A stretch of DNA of 45,076 bases, from positions 5,440 through 50,515 of the forward strand of contig JAPLVH010000025.1 in the NCBI GenBank assembly GCA_026397205.1, written 5' to 3'. The translations under genes and the position numbers were made by a program. The DNA is from Candidatus Berkelbacteria bacterium (GTDB taxonomy: Bacteria > Patescibacteriota > UBA1384 > XYA2-FULL-43-10 > CAINNR01). Positions 1,040 to 43,855 of this stretch are shown in pieces; the stretch's first letter is position 1, and the number at the start of each line of letters is the position of its first letter. The notes under the pieces are model-generated. The model was not told the DNA's origin, searched no databases, and saw nothing but the letters and a program-made list of their open reading frames with translations.

Positions 1040-1495
1040 ATGACTAAAAACGAATTAAAAATCAAAGTTGAAATTGCCAAATCAAAAAATGTTGATTGTG
1101 ATTTGACTGAAAAATTGGCCAAGAGAATTGCAAGCGACATAATTATTAAGATTTCACCGGAGACAAAAGGATCGATTGAGTTGATGCTGACGACGGCGGG
1201 CAAAATCGCCGAAATCAATCAGAAATTCCGTGGCAAAAATGAGCCGACCGATGTGCTGTCATTTCCACTGGAACAGCTTGATGGCGCAAAAGAGAATATC
1301 ATCGGCACGATTATAATTTGTCCAGAAATCGCCAAACAAAAAAACGAAACTTGCGAAGAACTTCTGCAACACGGAATAATTCATTTGCTTGGATACGATC
1401 ACGAGACAGATGAAGAAGAATGGAATAGCGCCACATCAAAAATCAAATATCAAAAATCCCCACAGGGTAAGCTAGCGCAAAAAAATGACAGATAA
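1040..1495 (+). CDS. ybeY: Endoribonuclease YbeY (rRNA maturation factor), C-terminus replaced by repeat-encoded sequence
   Basis: 'NEPTDVLSFPLE' and 'LLQHGIIHLLGYDHETDEEE' zinc motif; tail SKIKYQKSPQGKLAQKNDR is repeat-derived. Confidence 0.9.
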   Translation: MTKNELKIKVEIAKSKNVDCDLTEKLAKRIASDIIIKISPETKGSIELMLTTAGKIAEINQKFRGKNEPTDVLSFPLEQLDGAKENIIGTIIICPEIAKQKNETCEELLQHGIIHLLGYDHETDEEEWNSATSKIKYQKSPQGKLAQKNDR

Positions 1496-9285: not shown

Positions 9286-9793
9286 GATTATCGTATATTC
9301 AGGAAATGGCAAGGGCAAATCAACCGCCGCTTTTGGCTTGGCGATCCGCGCCGCCGGCTGGGGAAAAAAAGTCGCCATCGTTCAATTTATCAAGGGCTAT
9401 AAAAATACCGGCGAGTGGAAATTTTTTTCCCGAATTCCGGAAATTGATATTTTCCAGTCGTTTGACGATGAAACGATGTCAATCGGCGAGCCGACAAAAA
9501 TTCACAAAAAAAACGCCTTTAAAAGTTTGGCGCAAGCAAAAGAAATCATCGAATCCAAAAAGTATGATGTTGTCATACTTGACGAAATCAACAACGCAGT
9601 TTTTTATCACCTCGTGGAGGCGGGGGAGATGATAAAAATTTTGAAAACCGCGCCGGCAGAGCTCGACATCGTTCTGACCGGCCGAAACGCTCCGTCAGAA
9701 TTTATCAAAATTGCCGATTTGGTTTCAGAAATAAAAAATATAAAACACCCTTTCGATTCCGGCAAACCGGCAAAAAAGGGGATTGATTACTGA
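9284..9793 (+). CDS. cobO: Cob(I)yrinic acid a,c-diamide adenosyltransferase (CobO/BtuR-type)
   Basis: 'MIIVYSGNGKGKSTAAFGLAIRAAGWGKKVAIVQFIKG', 'VVILDEINNAVFYHLV'. Confidence 0.9.
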   Translation: MIIVYSGNGKGKSTAAFGLAIRAAGWGKKVAIVQFIKGYKNTGEWKFFSRIPEIDIFQSFDDETMSIGEPTKIHKKNAFKSLAQAKEIIESKKYDVVILDEINNAVFYHLVEAGEMIKILKTAPAELDIVLTGRNAPSEFIKIADLVSEIKNIKHPFDSGKPAKKGIDY

Positions 9794-9799
9794 AAATGA

Positions 9800-10059
9800 A
9801 AAGCCCGCCGGCGAACCGGCGGGACTCGTAATTGGGTAAGGGGGTGGAGGAGATTTCCACCCAATCGTCTGGAGACCAATCCTTCGCGGGGTTTAGTGGG
9901 TTCTCCCGGCTCCATTATGGCCGCCTCCCGCCATGCGAGACGATCGCATGTAAGACAACCATGTTTGTGACTAACTTATTTGGGATGGTCTATGTCCAAA
10001 ATCAGCCAGCCACATTCTTGATTATAAATAATTATAGCAAACAAATTTAAATTTGTCAA
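9800..10059 (-). ncRNA. Putative structured non-coding RNA T1 (promoter to terminator)
   Basis: Minus strand TTGACA (10054-10059)-N17-TATAAT (10031-10036); terminator stem cccgccgg-cgaa-ccggcggg (9804-9823); internal hairpins (catgcga-tcgtc-tcgcatg; gggtgga-aatctcc-tccaccc). Confidence 0.6.
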
Positions 10060-10086
10060 TAGGTTTTGGAAAAAAGTCCGAATTTT

Positions 10087-10205
10087 GAAGCTAAAAACAA
10101 CAATTTTCAATTATCAATTTCTAATTTCCATTGAATTTTCAATGACTAAATTTCCAAACGTTTGAAAATTGAAAATTGGAATTTGATTGAAAATTGCAAA
10201 AATGA
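10087..10205. repeat. Dispersed inverted-arm element, family C copy 2
   Basis: Near-identical architecture to 9168-9285, shared core 'attgaattttcaatgac.aaat...aaacgtttgaaaattgaaaa'. Confidence 0.75.
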
Positions 10206-12233: not shown

Positions 12234-15146
12234 TTGTGCTTTAATCAAAGTATGACCAAAAATTTACAATTTGATTTTGATGCCGACGACAAAATTATTG
12301 ATCAAAAAATAAAGTTGAACAATCGCCAGCTTGAAGTTGTAAACTACAAAACCGGTCCGCTTTTGGTGATTGCCGGTGCCGGAACCGGGAAAACCGCCGT
12401 CATTACTCATCGAATCGCCAATATTATCGCTAAAAAATGGGCTCGCTCCTCGGAAATTTTGGCCTTGACATTTACCGACAAAGCGGCGGCCGAAATGGAG
12501 GGGCGAGTTGACCAACTAGTGCCGTACGGCTACACCGACATTTGGATTTCGACTTTTCACGCTTTCGGCGACCGGTTTTTGCGCGATTATGCTATTGACC
12601 TCGGTCTGCCGGCAAATTTCAAAGTCCTAACCCAGACCGAACAGGCAATTTTTTTGCGTCAAAATATTTACGCTTTTGACCTGAATTATTTTCGGCCTAT
12701 CGCCGATCCGCTGTCGCATATTTATGAACTTTTAAATCATTTCTCGCGGCTGAAAGACGAATTAATTTCGCCCGAGGATTATCTTACTTGGGTTCAAGAT
12801 CAAAGATCAAAGATCAAAGATCAAAATGACAAAGACGAAATTCAAATAGAAAAAAATCTTGAATTGGCAAAAGCATATTCGAGATACCAGGAGCTGATGA
12901 TTCAATCCGGCAATTTGGATTTTGGCGATCAGATTTTTTTGGTTTATAAACTTCTCTCCGAAAATAAAAAAGTTCTCAAGGAATGCCGAAAGAAATTTCG
13001 CTATATTTTGGTTGATGAATTTCAAGACACAAACTTTGCTCAAAACGAAATTGTTAAACTTTTGGCCGGCGTTGATGTAAATATTATGGTTGTTGCCGAT
13101 GATGATCAAGCGATTTATAGGTTTCGCGGCGCCTCAATTTCTAATGTTTTAAATTTTAAAGATTCATACAAAAATGTAAAACAAATCGTTTTAAAAAATA
13201 ACTTTCGTTCGTCGCAAGAAATTCTCGACGGCGCTTATCGCTTAATTCAAAACAACAATCCCGATCGGCTGGAAGTTCAAAACAAGATTGACAAAAAACT
13301 CAAGTCCAATTTTCACGGCGCTGAACCAGAGCTTTTATTTTGCCAAACTCTTTCCGCCGAAGCCGACAAAGTTGTTGAAAAAATAGTCAAGTTAAAAGAA
13401 AAAGGGGATTTCAAAAATAATGAATTTGCAATTTTGGTCAGGGCCAATAATCAAAGCGAGCCGTTTATCCAAGCGCTCACAACAAAGGGAATTCCGGCGA
13501 TTTTTTCCGGCGCCTCCGGACTTTATACCCAGCCGGAAATTAAAATGATTTTGGCATTTTTGAAAACGATTTCCTTCACCGATGACAATTTGGCTTTTTA
13601 TCAACTGGCGACTTCTGATATATACCAAATTTCTCACGATTTGATCTCTGAAGTATATACTAAATCGCGGCGAGAAAATCGCTCAATTTCTAATTTGGTA
13701 AAAGATAACAAAAAATTTGTCGAAATTTCTGCTGACATTAAAAAATTTCGCCAGAAAATAAACGAACCAGTTGGAGAAATTCTGTATGAATATCTGACCG
13801 AAAAATCATATCTAAAAAATTTAACCGCCGACCTAAGTATCGAAAACGAGCAAAAGATTTTCAACATCGCCAAATTTTTCGACACCATCGCCCAGTTCAA
13901 TCATTCATCGGACGAAAGGGGAGTGCTGGAGTTTTTGGAAAATTTGGAACTCATAATTGATGCCGGTGGTGACTTGAAATCAGCTGAAGTTGATCGCGAT
14001 TTCGACGCCGTCAATATTTTAACCGTTCATTCGGCGAAGGGGCTGGAGTGGCCGGTGGTTTTTGTCGTAAATTGCGTCGCCGATAGATTTCCAAGCCGTA
14101 ATCGCCGCGAGCAATTGCCAATTCCCGATGAATTAATCAAGGAACGCTTGCCGGAAGGTGATTGGCATTTGCAGGAGGAACGCCGGCTTTTTTATGTCGC
14201 CGCAACCCGTGCAAAAAACTATTTATTCTTTACCGCCGCCGAGGACTATGGTGGTAAACGGGCAAAAAAAATCTCACCATTTGTTCTGGAATTTCTGGCA
14301 GAAAATCAACCGGAAAAATTAAAACATTCTCTGTCACCGGAAGAAAAAATCAACCGTTTCAAAAAACTGCCTCGGCCCAAGGCTGACCGGCCTTTGGCCG
14401 GGACTAAATTTTCTTCCGAAATTTTGAAACTATCGCGCCAGCAAATTGATGACTATTTCTCCTGTCCGAAGAAATTTTACTTCGCCCACATTATCAAAAT
14501 TCCACTTTTAGAAAATCAAAATTTAATGTACGGAACGGCAATCCACGCCGCACTTGATCACTATTTTCGGCGAAAAATAAACGGCGACCGACCGACACTC
14601 AATCAATTAATTGCTGATTATGAACAGGCATTCAAAAATGTTGGTTTTATTTCACGCCAGCAGGAAGAACTGCGGCACAACCAAGGAATTTCGACATTAA
14701 CAAATTTTTACGATCGCGATCAAAAAGATTCGATTGTGCCGTCGGCGGTCGAGGAAGTTTTTGAATTTGCTGATGAGAATGTCAAAGTTGTCGGACGATT
14801 TGATTTGGTGCGCAAAATTGCTGATGATGCTGAAATTTGCGATTTCAAAACCTCCGATGTTCGCGAGCAAAAAGATGCCGACAGACGGATTAAGGAATCA
14901 ACACAAATGATGATTTACGCTTTGGCCTGGCGAGAAAAATATCAGACGATCCCAAAAACTACTTTGTTTTTTATCGAATCGGGGTTAAAAGGCGAGCGAC
15001 AATTTTCCGACAAGGAAATTGACGCCACTCGCCAGATGATTTTGGCTGTCGCCGCTGGAATCCGCAAATCTGATTTTTCCGCCCAGCCAGATATTTTTCA
15101 GTGCAAATATTGTCCGTACAAAGAGATATGTCCGGAAGCAATCTGA
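12234..15146 (+). CDS. UvrD/PcrA-family helicase with C-terminal PD-(D/E)XK nuclease domain and AddB/Cas4-like cysteine cluster
   Basis: 'LLVIAGAGTGKTAVITHRIA', 'ILVDEFQDTN', 'VVADDDQAIYRFRGA', 'LFYVAATRAK'; C-term 'DYFSCPKKFYFAH...EICDFKTSD...CKYCPYKEIC'. Confidence 0.9.
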   Translation: MCFNQSMTKNLQFDFDADDKIIDQKIKLNNRQLEVVNYKTGPLLVIAGAGTGKTAVITHRIANIIAKKWARSSEILALTFTDKAAAEMEGRVDQLVPYGYTDIWISTFHAFGDRFLRDYAIDLGLPANFKVLTQTEQAIFLRQNIYAFDLNYFRPIADPLSHIYELLNHFSRLKDELISPEDYLTWVQDQRSKIKDQNDKDEIQIEKNLELAKAYSRYQELMIQSGNLDFGDQIFLVYKLLSENKKVLKECRKKFRYILVDEFQDTNFAQNEIVKLLAGVDVNIMVVADDDQAIYRFRGASISNVLNFKDSYKNVKQIVLKNNFRSSQEILDGAYRLIQNNNPDRLEVQNKIDKKLKSNFHGAEPELLFCQTLSAEADKVVEKIVKLKEKGDFKNNEFAILVRANNQSEPFIQALTTKGIPAIFSGASGLYTQPEIKMILAFLKTISFTDDNLAFYQLATSDIYQISHDLISEVYTKSRRENRSISNLVKDNKKFVEISADIKKFRQKINEPVGEILYEYLTEKSYLKNLTADLSIENEQKIFNIAKFFDTIAQFNHSSDERGVLEFLENLELIIDAGGDLKSAEVDRDFDAVNILTVHSAKGLEWPVVFVVNCVADRFPSRNRREQLPIPDELIKERLPEGDWHLQEERRLFYVAATRAKNYLFFTAAEDYGGKRAKKISPFVLEFLAENQPEKLKHSLSPEEKINRFKKLPRPKADRPLAGTKFSSEILKLSRQQIDDYFSCPKKFYFAHIIKIPLLENQNLMYGTAIHAALDHYFRRKINGDRPTLNQLIADYEQAFKNVGFISRQQEELRHNQGISTLTNFYDRDQKDSIVPSAVEEVFEFADENVKVVGRFDLVRKIADDAEICDFKTSDVREQKDADRRIKESTQMMIYALAWREKYQTIPKTTLFFIESGLKGERQFSDKEIDATRQMILAVAAGIRKSDFSAQPDIFQCKYCPYKEICPEAI
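12798..12825 (+). repeat. (GATCAAA)x4 heptanucleotide tandem inside the helicase gene
   Basis: 'gatcaaagatcaaagatcaaagatcaaaatgac', encodes QDQRSKIKDQND. Confidence 0.85.
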
Positions 15147-15149
15147 GAA

Positions 15150-15305
15150 AATAACCAAGATACAAGAAACAATAATCAAACAATACTCAAATTACAAATT
15201 CAAAATTTCAAACATTTGAGTTTTTGAGATTTTTGATTTGTTTGTGATTTGCTTCTTGCGATTTGTGATTTATTTGTTTCTTGTATCTCGTTTCTTGGTT
15301 ATTGA
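15150..15305. repeat. Dispersed inverted-arm element, family D copy 1
   Basis: 'aaccaagatacaagaaacaataatcaaac...ttgatttgtttgtgatttgcttcttgcgatttgtgatttatttgtttcttgtatctcgtttcttggtt'. Confidence 0.75.
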
Positions 15306-15350
15306 TTTTGTGATTTTAGCTTCAAAATCCGGACTTTTTTCCAAAACCTA

Positions 15351-15820
15351 TTGACAAATTCTTGGCGGTTTGCTATAATGTATTTATTAATTAACATATT
15401 CGACACAGGAGACCGGCAATGGCAACGTCGCCAGCGCCGGTCTCCGCCCATCTTTCAAAATATCATCGCCGGCTAAGTGAAAATAATTCGATTGTTTTCA
15501 TCAAGCTTGCGACAGAGCCAAAATCTGCAGTAGCAGAAGTGCCGGTCGTTTTGTGCTGGCACACAACTCTGGCGCAACACTCGGCCGAGAACTTGGGGGC
15601 TTATGCGGAGACGCATTTGCTCACGGATCCGCCCAAGCTATCGGCTTCCAAACCGAGTTGCCCTCTTCGGACATCTGCCGGACGAAAATCCGGCGCCGAT
15701 TTGGGCGACTCGGCCAACCTTTTCCGGAGTGGTGCTCCGGCACGGCTCTGGCTGATAGCAATATCAGCCATCCAGACAACAAGTCCCGCCACCTTCAATG
15801 TGTGGCGGGCTTTTCGTATT
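15351..15820 (+). ncRNA. Putative structured non-coding RNA T2, ~430 nt
   Basis: TTGACA (15351-15356)-N17-TATAAT (15374-15379); hairpins ggagaccggc/gccggtctcc, ccggag/ctccgg, tggctgata-gcaa-tatcagcca; terminator cccgccac...gtggcggg-cttttc (15785-15814). Confidence 0.6.
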
Positions 15821-15851
15821 CAAACCGTCATTTTTCTGCTACTATAATAGT

Positions 15852-16868
15852 ATGAGTCAAACCATTTTGATAATTTTGGCGGTTGTAATAATTATGGTCG
15901 CAGCCGGAGTAATTTTGGCGGCTTATTTTCGCCGGCTTTTTTTGGAAGCAGAAAATCGCCGAACTTCAGACCAATCACTGCAAATGCTAAATCAAAATAT
16001 CCAATCGCTGCAAAGCAATGTCGCCGAAAAAATAGACCGGACAAATTCGGCAATTAATGACCGGCTCGACAACGCCGCCCGAGTAATTTCCGCCGTCAGC
16101 TCCGAACTGGGCAAGATGTCGCAAATCGGCTCGCAACTTTCAAATTTCCAAGAGTTTTTGAAATCACCGAAACTTCGCGGCGGACTCGGCGAGCAGGGAT
16201 TAAAGGATATGCTGGCGCAATGTCTGCCGGCCGAACTTTACAAAATGCAATATAGTTTTCGAAACGGCCAGATCGTAGACGCAATTATTAAAATTGATGC
16301 CGGCCTGATTCCGGTTGATGCCAAATTTCCGCTGGAAAATTTTAATCGCTTTCTCAACGCCAAAACGGAAGCGGACAAAATCGAGGCGAAAAACAAATTT
16401 CGCTCCGATTTTCGGGTTCATATTAACGCCATCGCTAAAAAATATATCAATCCAGATGAAGGCACCGCCGATTTTGCTTTTATTTATCTGCCGTCGGAGT
16501 CAGTATTTTTTGAAATTGTTAACAACGAGCGCGATCTTTTCGATTATGCAGCAAAAAATAAAGTTATCCCGTCCAGCCCGTCAACTTTTTTCTACTATCT
16601 TCGGACGATAATGCTTGGACTTGAAGGCAAACGAATTACCGAAATGAGCCGGGAGATTATGAAAACGCTAAAATCAATTAAGCAGGAATCGGGAAAATTC
16701 GGCGATAATTTGGGCCGACTTAATAAACATTTGACCAACGCCAAAAATACGATGGAGACAGTTAATTCCGGCTACGCCAATTTGGCCGGCAAAATTGATT
16801 CCGTTGGCGCGCTGGAGGATCGCCAGGCGAAACTTTTAGAGGAAGCGAATGAAGAAATTAAGGAATAA
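15852..16868 (+). CDS. rmuC: RmuC-family DNA recombination protein
   Basis: Coiled coil + 'LRGGLGEQGLKDMLAQCLP...IPVDAKFPLENFNRFL'; ATG at 15852 chosen over upstream ORF start inside T2. Confidence 0.85.
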   Translation: MSQTILIILAVVIIMVAAGVILAAYFRRLFLEAENRRTSDQSLQMLNQNIQSLQSNVAEKIDRTNSAINDRLDNAARVISAVSSELGKMSQIGSQLSNFQEFLKSPKLRGGLGEQGLKDMLAQCLPAELYKMQYSFRNGQIVDAIIKIDAGLIPVDAKFPLENFNRFLNAKTEADKIEAKNKFRSDFRVHINAIAKKYINPDEGTADFAFIYLPSESVFFEIVNNERDLFDYAAKNKVIPSSPSTFFYYLRTIMLGLEGKRITEMSREIMKTLKSIKQESGKFGDNLGRLNKHLTNAKNTMETVNSGYANLAGKIDSVGALEDRQAKLLEEANEEIKE

Positions 16869-22309: not shown

Positions 22310-22432
22310 TCACAAATTACAAGAAACAAATTCCAAACAATATCTAAATTAGAAACTCAAAATTCCAAATGTTTGAACTTTTGAGATATTTGATTTGTTT
22401 GCGATTTGGAAATTGTGATTTGTAATTTTGTC
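22310..22432. repeat. Family D copy 2
   Basis: 'acaaatcacaaattacaagaaacaaattccaaac...tttgatttgtttgcgatttggaaattgtgatttgt'. Confidence 0.7.
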
Positions 22433-36586: not shown

Positions 36587-36696
36587 TTTATATCAAAATA
36601 CTTTGCCGATGTCAAGGTTTTCGCGACAAGTTTTCAAAATACTTTCTCAACGATTAACTCCCTCACTTTGATACGCTAGCGTATCAAAGTGAGGGA
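36587..36696 (-). promoter_or_regulatory. Promoter plus upstream 36-bp perfect palindrome (copy 1)
   Basis: ccctcactttgatacgctagcgtatcaaagtgaggg (36661-36696); TTGACA (36610-36615)-N17-TATAAA (36587-36592). Confidence 0.75.
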
Positions 36697-36748
36697 TCAC
36701 AACCAAAAAAGGAGAAAACGAATTTTCCTTTTTTAGTTTTTGTAAATT

Positions 36749-37245: not shown

Positions 37246-38517
37246 CTAATTTTCTCTGATTGTTAATCTTTTGTCAATCGAAGCCCGAATTTCCCGCATC
37301 AAGGCAAAATATGTCCAAAGATTATGTAATGTCAGAAGTCGAACGCCAAGGATTTCTTTTTCTCTGACCAGATGCGAAAGATAGCTTGTGGAAAATTGAT
37401 TTTTACATGTCGGGCACTGGCAATTTTCATCTAATGAATTTTTGTCCTCGCGATATTTAGAATTTAGTAAATTGATTTCTCGGTATTGAGTTATTAGTTT
37501 TTCGTTTTTTCTAGCTTTAGCTGACCCTGTGGGAGTTTTTAGTTTCACGTAAGCGACATTATGCCTCGCCATTCGTGTTGGCAAAACGCAATCAAACATA
37601 TCAATGCCGAGCTTTGTCGCCTGAATTATATCCTCCGGCGTCCCGACGCCCATCAAATACCGCGGTTTTTCGACTGGCAAAATATCATTTAGGAGAGCGA
37701 CAATTTTAAACATTTCCTTTTTTTTCTCGCCAACCGCAAGTCCACCGATCGCGTAGCCGTCCAAATCCATCGCTACCATTTTCTCGGCACAATATTTTCT
37801 TAGGTCAGGGAAAATTCCGCCCTGAACAATCCCAAACAAAGCAGGTTTGAGGTTTATGATTTGAGATTTGAGATTTGTTTGTGATTTGCTTCTTGTTTCT
37901 TGAAATTTCCGATCAAGATGTTTTTTCGATCTTTTCAACCATTTTATTGATAATCCAGCTGCTTTCTCAACTTCGAATTTCAACTCTGATGCAGGCGGAC
38001 AAACATCGAGAGGCATAATTATGTTCGAGCCGAGCGCCAACTGAATGTCAATAACTTTTTCCGGTGTAAAAAAATGTTTTGAACCGTCAAGATATGACTT
38101 GAATTCAACTCCATCATCAGTAATTTTCACCAATGAATTTTCCTTGCCTTCATTTCGAATTTCTGATTTTGAATTTGTTTGGAAATTGGAAATTGGAAAT
38201 TGGAAATTGCGTTTTCCGAGTGAAAACGCCTGAAATCCGCCCGAATCAGTGAGAACCGGCCCCTGCCAACGATTATATTCGCTAAGTCCGCCTAGTTCTG
38301 CAATCAATTTTTCGCCCGGTCGCAAATATAGGTGATAAGTATTTCCAAGAATTATTTCGGCGCCAAGATCGTGCAACTCCCAAGGCGCAACACTTTTGAC
38401 CGCACCGACCGTTCCAACCGGCATAAAAACCGGGGTCTGAATTTTGCCGTTAGCAGTCGTTAACTCACCAATGCGAAGCGATGACTTATTTGTTTGTTTT
38501 TTGACGAGAAACTTCAT
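37246..38517 (-). CDS. tgt: tRNA-guanine transglycosylase (Tgt) with three repeat-like in-frame insertions
   Basis: 'GPVLTDSGGFQAFSLG', 'ALFGIVQGGIFPDLR', 'DGYAIGGLAVGE', 'YLMGVGTPEDI', 'CQCPTCKN'. Confidence 0.95.
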   Translation of the reverse strand: MKFLVKKQTNKSSLRIGELTTANGKIQTPVFMPVGTVGAVKSVAPWELHDLGAEIILGNTYHLYLRPGEKLIAELGGLSEYNRWQGPVLTDSGGFQAFSLGKRNFQFPISNFQTNSKSEIRNEGKENSLVKITDDGVEFKSYLDGSKHFFTPEKVIDIQLALGSNIIMPLDVCPPASELKFEVEKAAGLSIKWLKRSKKHLDRKFQETRSKSQTNLKSQIINLKPALFGIVQGGIFPDLRKYCAEKMVAMDLDGYAIGGLAVGEKKKEMFKIVALLNDILPVEKPRYLMGVGTPEDIIQATKLGIDMFDCVLPTRMARHNVAYVKLKTPTGSAKARKNEKLITQYREINLLNSKYREDKNSLDENCQCPTCKNQFSTSYLSHLVREKEILGVRLLTLHNLWTYFALMREIRASIDKRLTIREN

Positions 38518-38518
38518 A

Positions 38519-38637
38519 AATCAAATATTAAAAATCAAAGATCAAAATGCTGGTCGGCACTCCGTGTCGGTATTAAATTCTTTTTAACTCTTTTTTATCT
38601 GTCATTTTGATTTTTGATATTTGATTTTTGATCTTTC
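38519..38637. repeat. Family B copy 2
   Basis: 'aaatcaaatattaaaaatcaaagatcaaaatgctggtcggcactccgtg...atctgtcattttgatttttgatatttgatttttgatc'. Confidence 0.8.
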
Positions 38638-38693
38638 TAGATTCTACCAAAAAAGGCCCGAGGAGTCGAGCCCTTTTGGTGATAAGCATCAAT

Positions 38694-39365: not shown

Positions 39366-39454
39366 TTTTACTCCTCTTTCTAATTAATTTTTAATTTTAA
39401 ACTATAATTTTATCTTGCGATAGCTGACCCTGTGGGCACTTATCATTTTTAACT

Positions 39455-40287: not shown

Positions 40288-40423
40288 ATCTTATCAAAGC
40301 AATTTCTACCTGTCAAGCATTATCTACTAAATTATCCGCCAGCATTTTTTCAAAATTCCAATTTTTTTCACCGCACCACGATTAACTCCCTCACTTTGAT
40401 ACACTAGTGTATCAAAGTGAGGG
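40288..40423 (-). promoter_or_regulatory. Candidate rplJ leader promoter plus 36-bp perfect palindrome (copy 2)
   Basis: ccctcactttgatacactagtgtatcaaagtgaggg (40388-40423); TTGACA (40311-40316)-N17-TAAGAT (40288-40293). Confidence 0.65.
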
Positions 40424-40488
40424 ATGATAATCATAACAAAAAAACGCCAACCGATTTGGCTGACGCAACTGAATTGGTGAAACCAATA

Positions 40489-42498: not shown

Positions 42499-42606
42499 TC
42501 AAAAATCAAATATCAAAAATCAAAATGACAAATTAAAATGTAAAAATAGTTCAGCCACGAAGTGGCTACCACAATTTTGATCTTTGATTTTTAATTTTTG
42601 ATTTTT
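42499..42606. repeat. Family B copy 3
   Basis: 'caaaaatcaaatatcaaaaatcaaaatgac...cagccacgaagtggctaccacaattttgatctttgatttttaatttttgatttttc'. Confidence 0.8.
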
Positions 42607-42609
42607 CGA

Positions 42610-42915
42610 TTACATTCCCGGCAATCCCATTCCACCCATCACATCTTTCATTTTTTCCGCCGCCAAGGCCTGTGAACGGGAGATTGCCTGGCTGACAGTA
42701 TTTAAAATTTGTTTCTCCAGCTCTGACTTATTTTCCGGTCGCAAAGATTCGGCGTCGAGTGAAACTTCAACCAAATGCTGTTCACCGTTAAAAACCACAG
42801 TCACCCAGCCGTCGTTACTTTTGGCCTCGATTTCCGTGTCTTTTAATTCTTTCTGAATTTCCCGCGCCTGTTTTTGCAATTTGTAAAGATCCTTCATTTT
42901 TCCAAAATCAACCAT
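42610..42915 (-). CDS. ybaB: YbaB/EbfC family nucleoid-associated protein
   Basis: 'MVDFGKMKDLYKLQKQAREIQKELKDTEIEAKSNDGWVTVVFNGEQHLVEV', C-terminal 'MGGMGLPGM'. Confidence 0.9.
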   Translation of the reverse strand: MVDFGKMKDLYKLQKQAREIQKELKDTEIEAKSNDGWVTVVFNGEQHLVEVSLDAESLRPENKSELEKQILNTVSQAISRSQALAAEKMKDVMGGMGLPGM

Positions 42916-43745: not shown

Positions 43746-43855
43746 ATATAAGTCAAAAATCAAAAATCAAAATGTTGGTCGGCACTCCGTGCTGGGATTT
43801 AATTCTTTTAATCTTTTTCATCTATCATTTTGATTTTTGATATTTGATTTTTGCA
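43746..43855. repeat. Family B copy 4
   Basis: 'caaaaatcaaaaatcaaaatgttggtcggcactccgtgctgg...catctatcattttgatttttgatatttgatttttgc'. Confidence 0.8.

Follow-up and report, generated by a model that had tools for sequence, protein, structure and literature searches.

The tgt gene, which encodes queuine/preQ1 tRNA-ribosyltransferase (Tgt), lies on the minus strand of a 45,076-nt stretch of DNA that was analyzed as a whole (the window). Three segments of its product are extra relative to canonical Tgt, for which 80 Tgt sequences of non-CPR bacteria, all outside the window's own group, served as the reference. The gene and its segments are as follows.

37246-38517, minus strand: tgt ORF (423 aa), in which the inserts lie (PF01702, 438.6 bits)
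38134-38211, minus strand: insert 1, aa 103-128, RNFQFPISNFQTNSKSEIRNEGKENS; GGAAATT/AATTTCC heptad array plus flank (absent in >70% of the 80 canonical Tgt)
37855-37905, minus strand: insert 2, aa 205-221, FQETRSKSQTNLKSQII; a lone A-rich arm belonging to the CAAATCACAAACAAATC family of heptads (same-genome matches)
37480-37536, minus strand: insert 3, aa 328-346, TPTGSAKARKNEKLITQYR; heptads of the AAACTAA type, with the hairpin module nested among them (canonical loop 6 aa in 80/80)
37510-37533, minus strand: hairpin module of 24 nt within insert 3, CCCACAGGGTCAGCTAAAGCTAGA, frame-neutral (genome copies)

A first-pass annotation of this DNA had claimed three extra in-frame segments in tgt and had proposed an alignment to homologues, a mapping onto structure, and a genome search for the insert DNA. 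Its coordinates and motifs hold. When the window's Tgt was aligned with Tgt from 29 relatives and the 80 canonical sequences, precisely three stretches, those listed above, were extra (absent in >70% of the 80), and these are the inserts. The corresponding loops measure 31, 29, and 25 aa in the window's Tgt, against canonical medians of 5, 11, and 6 aa; among the canonical sequences, the first loop ranges from 5 to 13 aa and the second from 8 to 33 aa. The AlphaFold model has a mean pLDDT of 89.8 with a confident core, and in a Foldseek comparison, it matches the Zymomonas mobilis TGT (E = 2.6e-42; TM, 0.80/0.91). All three inserts map outside that core. Inserts 1 and 3 are low-confidence loops (pLDDT of <50 at aa 109 to 118 and 120 to 122 of insert 1 and of ∼58 in insert 3), and insert 2, rather than being a disordered loop, lengthens a helix and is predicted with moderate to good confidence. 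The inserts, which include the peptide stretches KRNFQFPISNFQ, SKSQTNLK, and PTGSAK, are in frame and leave the active-site and zinc residues in place: Asp91, Asp309, Cys366, Cys368, Cys371, and His398 are invariant or nearly so in the alignment. The two aspartates correspond to the catalytic aspartates of TGT and the cysteines and histidine to its zinc ligands. Judging from sequence and model, Tgt has probably retained its activity with the inserts.

To locate further copies of the insert DNA, we slid a 63-nt probe along tgt against a 280-kb sample of the genome, whose stretches were drawn partly from contigs with known matches, so that match densities in it cannot be extrapolated genome-wide. 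Outside the inserts and their edges, the probe matched zero or one place; the maxima fell at inserts 1, 2, and 3 or their edges, with up to 2, 10, and 5 places, respectively. The genome search returned copies of inserts 2 and 3 and of the flank of insert 1; for the GGAAATT array of insert 1, no second copy was found in the genome. The related features elsewhere in the window are listed below.

15223-15271, plus strand: intergenic relative of insert 2 (94% identity in 36 nt), which forms the T-rich arm of a complete palindromic element
22380-22428, plus strand: another relative of insert 2 (84% identical to 15223-15271)
38521-38640, no strand assigned: intergenic full palindromic heptad element in the rplL/tgt gap, with an A-rich arm, a GC hairpin, and a T-rich arm (fold)
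39413-39436, minus strand: intergenic copy of the 24-nt module in the rplJ/rplL gap, locus L168 (motif match and module alignment)
1459-1482, plus strand: GGGTAAG variant of the module, within a heptad element, in the tail of the ORF named ybeY by the first-pass annotation
12787-12835, plus strand: in-frame heptad array (GATCAAA) in a PcrA/UvrD-family helicase ORF (12234-15146)

Insert 1 sits between FSLG and KITDDGVEF and had been described as heptad encoded, which is the case: TTGGAAA is repeated 4.4 times with 100% identity at 38179 to 38209, and the lag-7 agreement of the insert is 21/21. The insert folds with a z score of -1.8. Its flank, AACAAATTCAAAATCAGAAATTC, is identical to an element at the polA locus (L183) over 25 nt (100% identity). 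The perfect GGAAATT array itself looks to have expanded locally.

The segment before ALFGIVQGG, insert 2, is likewise built of heptads, as had been proposed (TTTGAGA repeated 4.6 times at 37846 to 37877). Its DNA has 18 more same-genome matches, with a best nonself E value of 2.8e-11, and in the 280-kb sample, it matches 10 places, against 1 for a reversed control. Fourteen arms of the family align over ∼45 nt to the consensus ATAAATCACAAATCACAAGAAGCAAATCACAAACAAATCAGAAATC, and their conservation exceeds what simple periodicity would give. Alone, insert 2 has a minimum free energy of 0. The CAAATCACAAACAAATC family is essentially limited to the window's genome.

For insert 3, the claim was that one of its motifs recurs in the ybeY tail and between rplJ and rplL. 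The motif CCCACAGGGTCAGCTA is found exactly at 37518 to 37533 and 39421 to 39436 (both on the minus strand) and with one mismatch at 1459 to 1474 (plus strand), three occurrences where 0.03 are expected. It belongs to the 24-nt module, of which the genome holds 18 exact 12-nt cores (0 in the control) and ∼29 copies with at most one mismatch; the dispersed copies have near-constant boundaries. If the module is removed from insert 3, the flanks AAACTAAAAACT^AAAAACGAAAAACTAATAACTC regain the 7-nt phase, with 6/7 agreement across the junction. Over 23 modules whose flanks were joined in this way, junction agreement was 0.61 at lag 7 versus 0.31 to 0.48 at lags 5, 6, 8, and 9. Other forms of the module are 21 nt long, and the heptad phase returns upon excision of either 24 or 21 nt. 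Insert 3 therefore consists of heptads into which a hairpin is nested, and the three inserts belong to one superfamily of A-rich elements with a 7-nt period rather than being of three kinds, which refines the first-pass description.

The module also occurs in frame in PrmC, MiaA, an XerC/D-like recombinase, and a radical-SAM ORF, and the frame in which it is read varies by host: PTGSAKARK in Tgt, PTGSAEARK in PrmC, PQGQLSQE in MiaA, and PHRVSYRKK in the XerC/D-like ORF. A GGGTAAG form that carries TAA and ends in AAAA (L264-L267 and L271-L274) is almost only intergenic, and the form inside genes is the one with TCA. We considered an in-gene preference for module lengths divisible by three and set it aside: all nine clear sense copies are 24 nt long, but so are most others, which makes this no proof.

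Across the 280-kb sample, 84 lag-7 arrays were counted, versus a mean of 1.8 at lags 4 to 6 and 8 to 12. Within ORFs of at least 150 aa (simple longest-ORF calls), 31 arrays are in frame, versus 0.5 at other lags. The units include GGAAATT, CAAATCN, TCAAAAA, AATTCTT, AACTAAA, and others. Between genes, the elements can be long hairpins in which an A-rich arm is followed by a T-rich arm (z scores of -6.1 to -7.3). A 115-nt stretch of the element in the rplL/tgt gap, for example, folds at -31.7 kcal/mol (z = -6.1), and relatives of this element lie at 42499 to 42612 and 43753 to 43853. The in-gene copies are single heptad arms, and single arms fold poorly. The first-pass inference that intergenic elements have entered Tgt as tolerated in-frame loops, in the manner of Rickettsia palindromic elements (RPEs), is supported by the same-genome copies, the preserved frame, the position relative to the core, and the presence of such inserts in many other core genes; the presumed direction of movement is from intergenic DNA into the gene. 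The in-gene copies differ from RPEs in not being palindromes. One further repeat family was seen in the window, with two 59-nt copies at 36650 to 36708 and 40378 to 40436 that are 90% identical and contain a perfect palindrome (CCCTCACTTTGATACGCTAGCGTATCAAAGTGAGGG in the first).

Could the segments have arisen by local slippage, i.e., minisatellite growth within tgt alone, with no insertion of dispersed elements? Heptads are prone to slip, insert 3 minus its module is a simple heptad array, and the 4.4 GGAAATT units of insert 1 are both perfect and unique in the genome. However, inserts 1, 2, and 3 match unlinked loci over 25 to 50 nt, nonperiodic parts included, a single long consensus is common to the 14 arms, and the module is dispersed with near-constant boundaries. 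We regard slippage alone as unlikely, and for inserts 2 and 3, it is largely refuted. Dispersal of the repeat units is well supported, and local slippage must have acted in addition in insert 1.

The heptads and the module are not confined to Tgt. Hosts named by NCBIfam include valine-tRNA ligase (ValRS), glutamate-tRNA ligase, LepA, TsaD, MiaB, MiaA, QueA, PrmC, DnaE, PolA, MutM, an XerC/D-like recombinase, and a PcrA-like helicase, and several of the host proteins carry more than one insert. Compared with solved structures, QueA, TsaD, and LepA carry the segments as additional loops; that of LepA has ∼48 residues, versus 5 in LepA of known structure. The RNase P RNA is 491 nt long against a model of 367 positions, and ∼105 extra nt lie in one loop with a 7-nt period (L284:1644-1746, G000 C15), indicating that stable RNA genes are invaded too.

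Two of these host loci have further peculiarities. At the polA locus (L183 [G000 C29:15000-34999], minus strand, ∼14308 to 16800), polA apparently falls into two ORFs in different frames, one for the 5′-3′ exonuclease and one for the Klenow part. A composite element of heptads and a 21-nt module lies at the junction, and profile positions ∼288 to 488, the 3′-5′ exonuclease region, are missing. The helicase ORF at 12234 to 15146 of the window has a Cas4-like nuclease stretch at its C terminus, in an AddA-like layout.

The intragenic arrays are strongly oriented. In 29 of the 31, the coding strand is the A-rich strand (binomial P = 5e-7), and in 19 of the 31, the opposite strand has no open frame; stop codons on the T-rich strand thus go far toward explaining the orientation. 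As 7 and 3 have no common factor, identical heptads in a stop-free tandem can be read in every frame of their strand and always encode the same 7-residue peptide repeat. All three coding-strand frames are open in only 5 of the 31 arrays, so frame independence is at most a contributory explanation.

We then compared the Tgt loops with those of the relatives; the order was represented by 11 genomes, and the Tgt of the nearest full-length relative is ∼66% identical. The relatives carry unrelated sequences at the same three loops, with no conservation of residues. The first-pass annotation had held that unrelated sequences at these sites would count against insertion, and such sequences are literally what is found; yet many of them are repeats of the relatives' own genomes, which strengthens the case for insertion instead of refuting it. 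In G006, a 67-nt ATTCCCGC palindrome occupies loop 3 (matches of 83 to 90% in 40 kb), and in G008, a related palindrome occupies loop 1 (95% over 38 nt). Heptad arrays are present in the Tgt loops of G003, G004, G005, G007, and G025. Loops that are nearly empty occur in G002 (loops 1 and 2), which is of the same family, and in G010, of the same order. Unrelated repeats at the same sites without conservation suggest that these loops are recurrent sites of landing or survival and not conserved functional parts.

The module is common to the family of the window's genome (29, 16, and 2 copies). In G002, it is mostly 23 nt long and sits inside other, nonheptad repeats, which points to mosaic elements. 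The tgt gene of G002 (L020/L149, G002 C8:28935-30034) consists of two ORFs of 259 and 153 aa; the break is outside the three insert sites and reflects a frameshift or a sequencing error. Apparent orthologues of a THUMP/RlmL-like methyltransferase (L192 [G004 C1:1-20000], 9312 to 10175, and L176:10341-11588) carry heptad inserts in seemingly the same two places.

These comparisons bear on the alternative that the loops have a lineage-specific function in Tgt, for instance in tRNA or partner binding, and happen to be of low complexity. Many members of the class have long loops at all three sites (S1, 5 to 55 aa; S2, 9 to 43 aa; S3, 6 to 55 aa), and insert 2 lengthens a helix. However, the lack of residue conservation at the sites made us judge a function of the inserts in Tgt unlikely, and near-empty versions exist within the same family (G002, with an S2 of 14 aa) and order (G010). 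In addition, the insert DNA is repeat derived in several of these genomes, and the same elements are present in many unrelated enzymes. Taken together, we consider this alternative very improbable. An intron- or byp-like nature of the elements, as intervening sequences that are removed from the RNA or bypassed in translation, would suit the insert in RNase P RNA, an RNA gene, and the palindromic, bypassed interrupting elements known from yeast mitochondrial genes (PMC6649704), but it is hardly credible here, as the frame is open across the insert in the in-gene copies examined, as expected if they are translated, an Rfam search of the window found no known RNA and no known intron, and the in-gene arms lack a hairpin.

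The reading that we favor, with a probability of roughly 0.87, is that single arms of dispersed heptad elements, some with the module, were copied into protein genes, where they are tolerated passengers. Short A-rich elements of 7-nt units are scattered through the genome, and in intergenic copies, facing arms pair into long hairpins. Single arms, some with a nested 24-nt module, would have been copied into protein genes, and Tgt would have taken three, in three surface loops. Such copies may persist where the coding strand is the A-rich strand, so that the stop codons of the T-rich strand are avoided; where the total length of the insert is divisible by three; where the second arm is absent, which would leave the mRNA unstructured; and where the arm lands in a loop tolerant of a flexible segment. 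Once translated, the inserts would be polar, flexible peptides; they would most likely be passengers, either neutral or mildly deleterious, rather than working parts of the enzyme. Slippage on site would then extend some arrays, such as the perfect GGAAATT repeat in insert 1.

A search for a connection with a RAYT/Y1 transposase found none: the sole PF01797 gene has neither heptads nor the module at its flanks. The single Y1 transposase (L171 [G000 C21:24296-24628]), with an open frame of 270 aa, has unrelated inverted repeats, GGGGACGGTTCTCTTTTGA, on either side in a TIRYT-like layout. A broader proposal is that the heptads make up a mobile system of repeats that is fitted to coding DNA by its frame independence and that invades essential genes and remodels core enzymes across an order of Patescibacteria. 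A frame-neutral 24-nt module would then add to the ability of heptads to keep invading the essential genes of a reduced genome. We find this proposal doubtful.

Selfish repeats that code for protein have been considered peculiar to Rickettsia and Wolbachia, apart from isolated REP and MITE cases elsewhere. In the reduced genome studied here, repeats are found in many enzymes of translation, tRNA modification, and replication, and one protein often has several; the Tgt observation is confirmed and is larger than first described. A search of the available literature for such repeats in Patescibacteria/CPR, including heptad inserts in core proteins, found no report. The inserts provide a natural test of the amount of foreign peptide that an essential enzyme can accommodate, and they explain odd insertions in proteins of such genomes that might otherwise pass for adaptations. 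They are also a warning that such loops are unsuited as phylogenetic characters. Unrelated repeat families have struck the same Tgt loops in related genomes.

The palindromes in the Tgt loops of G006 and G008 are presumably dRS3-like/VIPAKAGI elements, which are unrelated to heptads and occupy the same loops in other genomes. The STRR of heterocystous cyanobacteria are one known kind of heptamer direct repeat. Another, the TAACTGA repeats of Beggiatoaceae and Cyanobacteria, is found chiefly at the edges of proteins or in hypothetical proteins (PMC4679880). Like TAACTGA repeats and STRR, the elements described here are tandem 7-nt units, mostly intergenic, with a stop-free strand that can be translated; unlike them, they comprise many different heptads and show palindromic arm pairing. 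Moreover, in contrast to TAACTGA repeats, they are located within the catalytic domains of core enzymes, and the TAACTGA unit is absent from our tandem-repeat and array listings. In Borgs, the tandem repeats of ORFs have a unit length that is a multiple of three, and they encode disordered protein regions (PMC9879509). Heptads are similar in being A-rich tandem repeats in ORFs that would yield flexible peptides but differ in that the unit measures 7 nt, the frame is kept only by the total length, and the host is a cellular chromosome.

The 24/21-nt module resembles REP/BIME sequences (PMC3733652, PMC2817692) in being a short hairpin with dozens of copies in mosaic combinations, and REPs have been reported within genes; in Xanthomonas recB, two species carry one at nearly the same position (PMC3733652). 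Unlike REP/RAYT systems, CCCACAGGGTCAGCTAAAGCTAGA lacks a GTAG or CGTC tag (GTAG occurs only in some 21-nt forms), and neither module nor heptads flank the genome's one Y1 transposase. In comparison with MITEs, the intergenic heptad copies are inverted repeats, and the module junctions regain the heptad phase.

RPEs (Ogata 2000/2002, reviewed in PMC2229807) occur between genes and in frame in conserved genes, including RNA genes. Like RPEs and Wolbachia palindromic elements, the heptads occupy intergenic sites as well as in-frame positions in conserved protein genes, and like RPEs, they are present in a stable RNA gene (RNase P RNA). By analogy with the insert-bearing Rickettsia Gmk, which was shown to be active (PMC2229807), the host product may be expected to be active. 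In-gene RPE copies, however, are palindromes of 105 to 146 bp with terminal inverted repeats (PMC2229807), whereas heptad elements are built of 7-nt tandem units, have single arms as in-gene copies, show no known sequence relation to RPEs, and inhabit a small-genomed lineage that, judging from the genome sizes of the host and its relatives, is probably patescibacterial and not Rickettsia. The heptad elements are RPE-like in behavior but are not RPEs, as they fail the palindromic anatomy of the in-gene copies.
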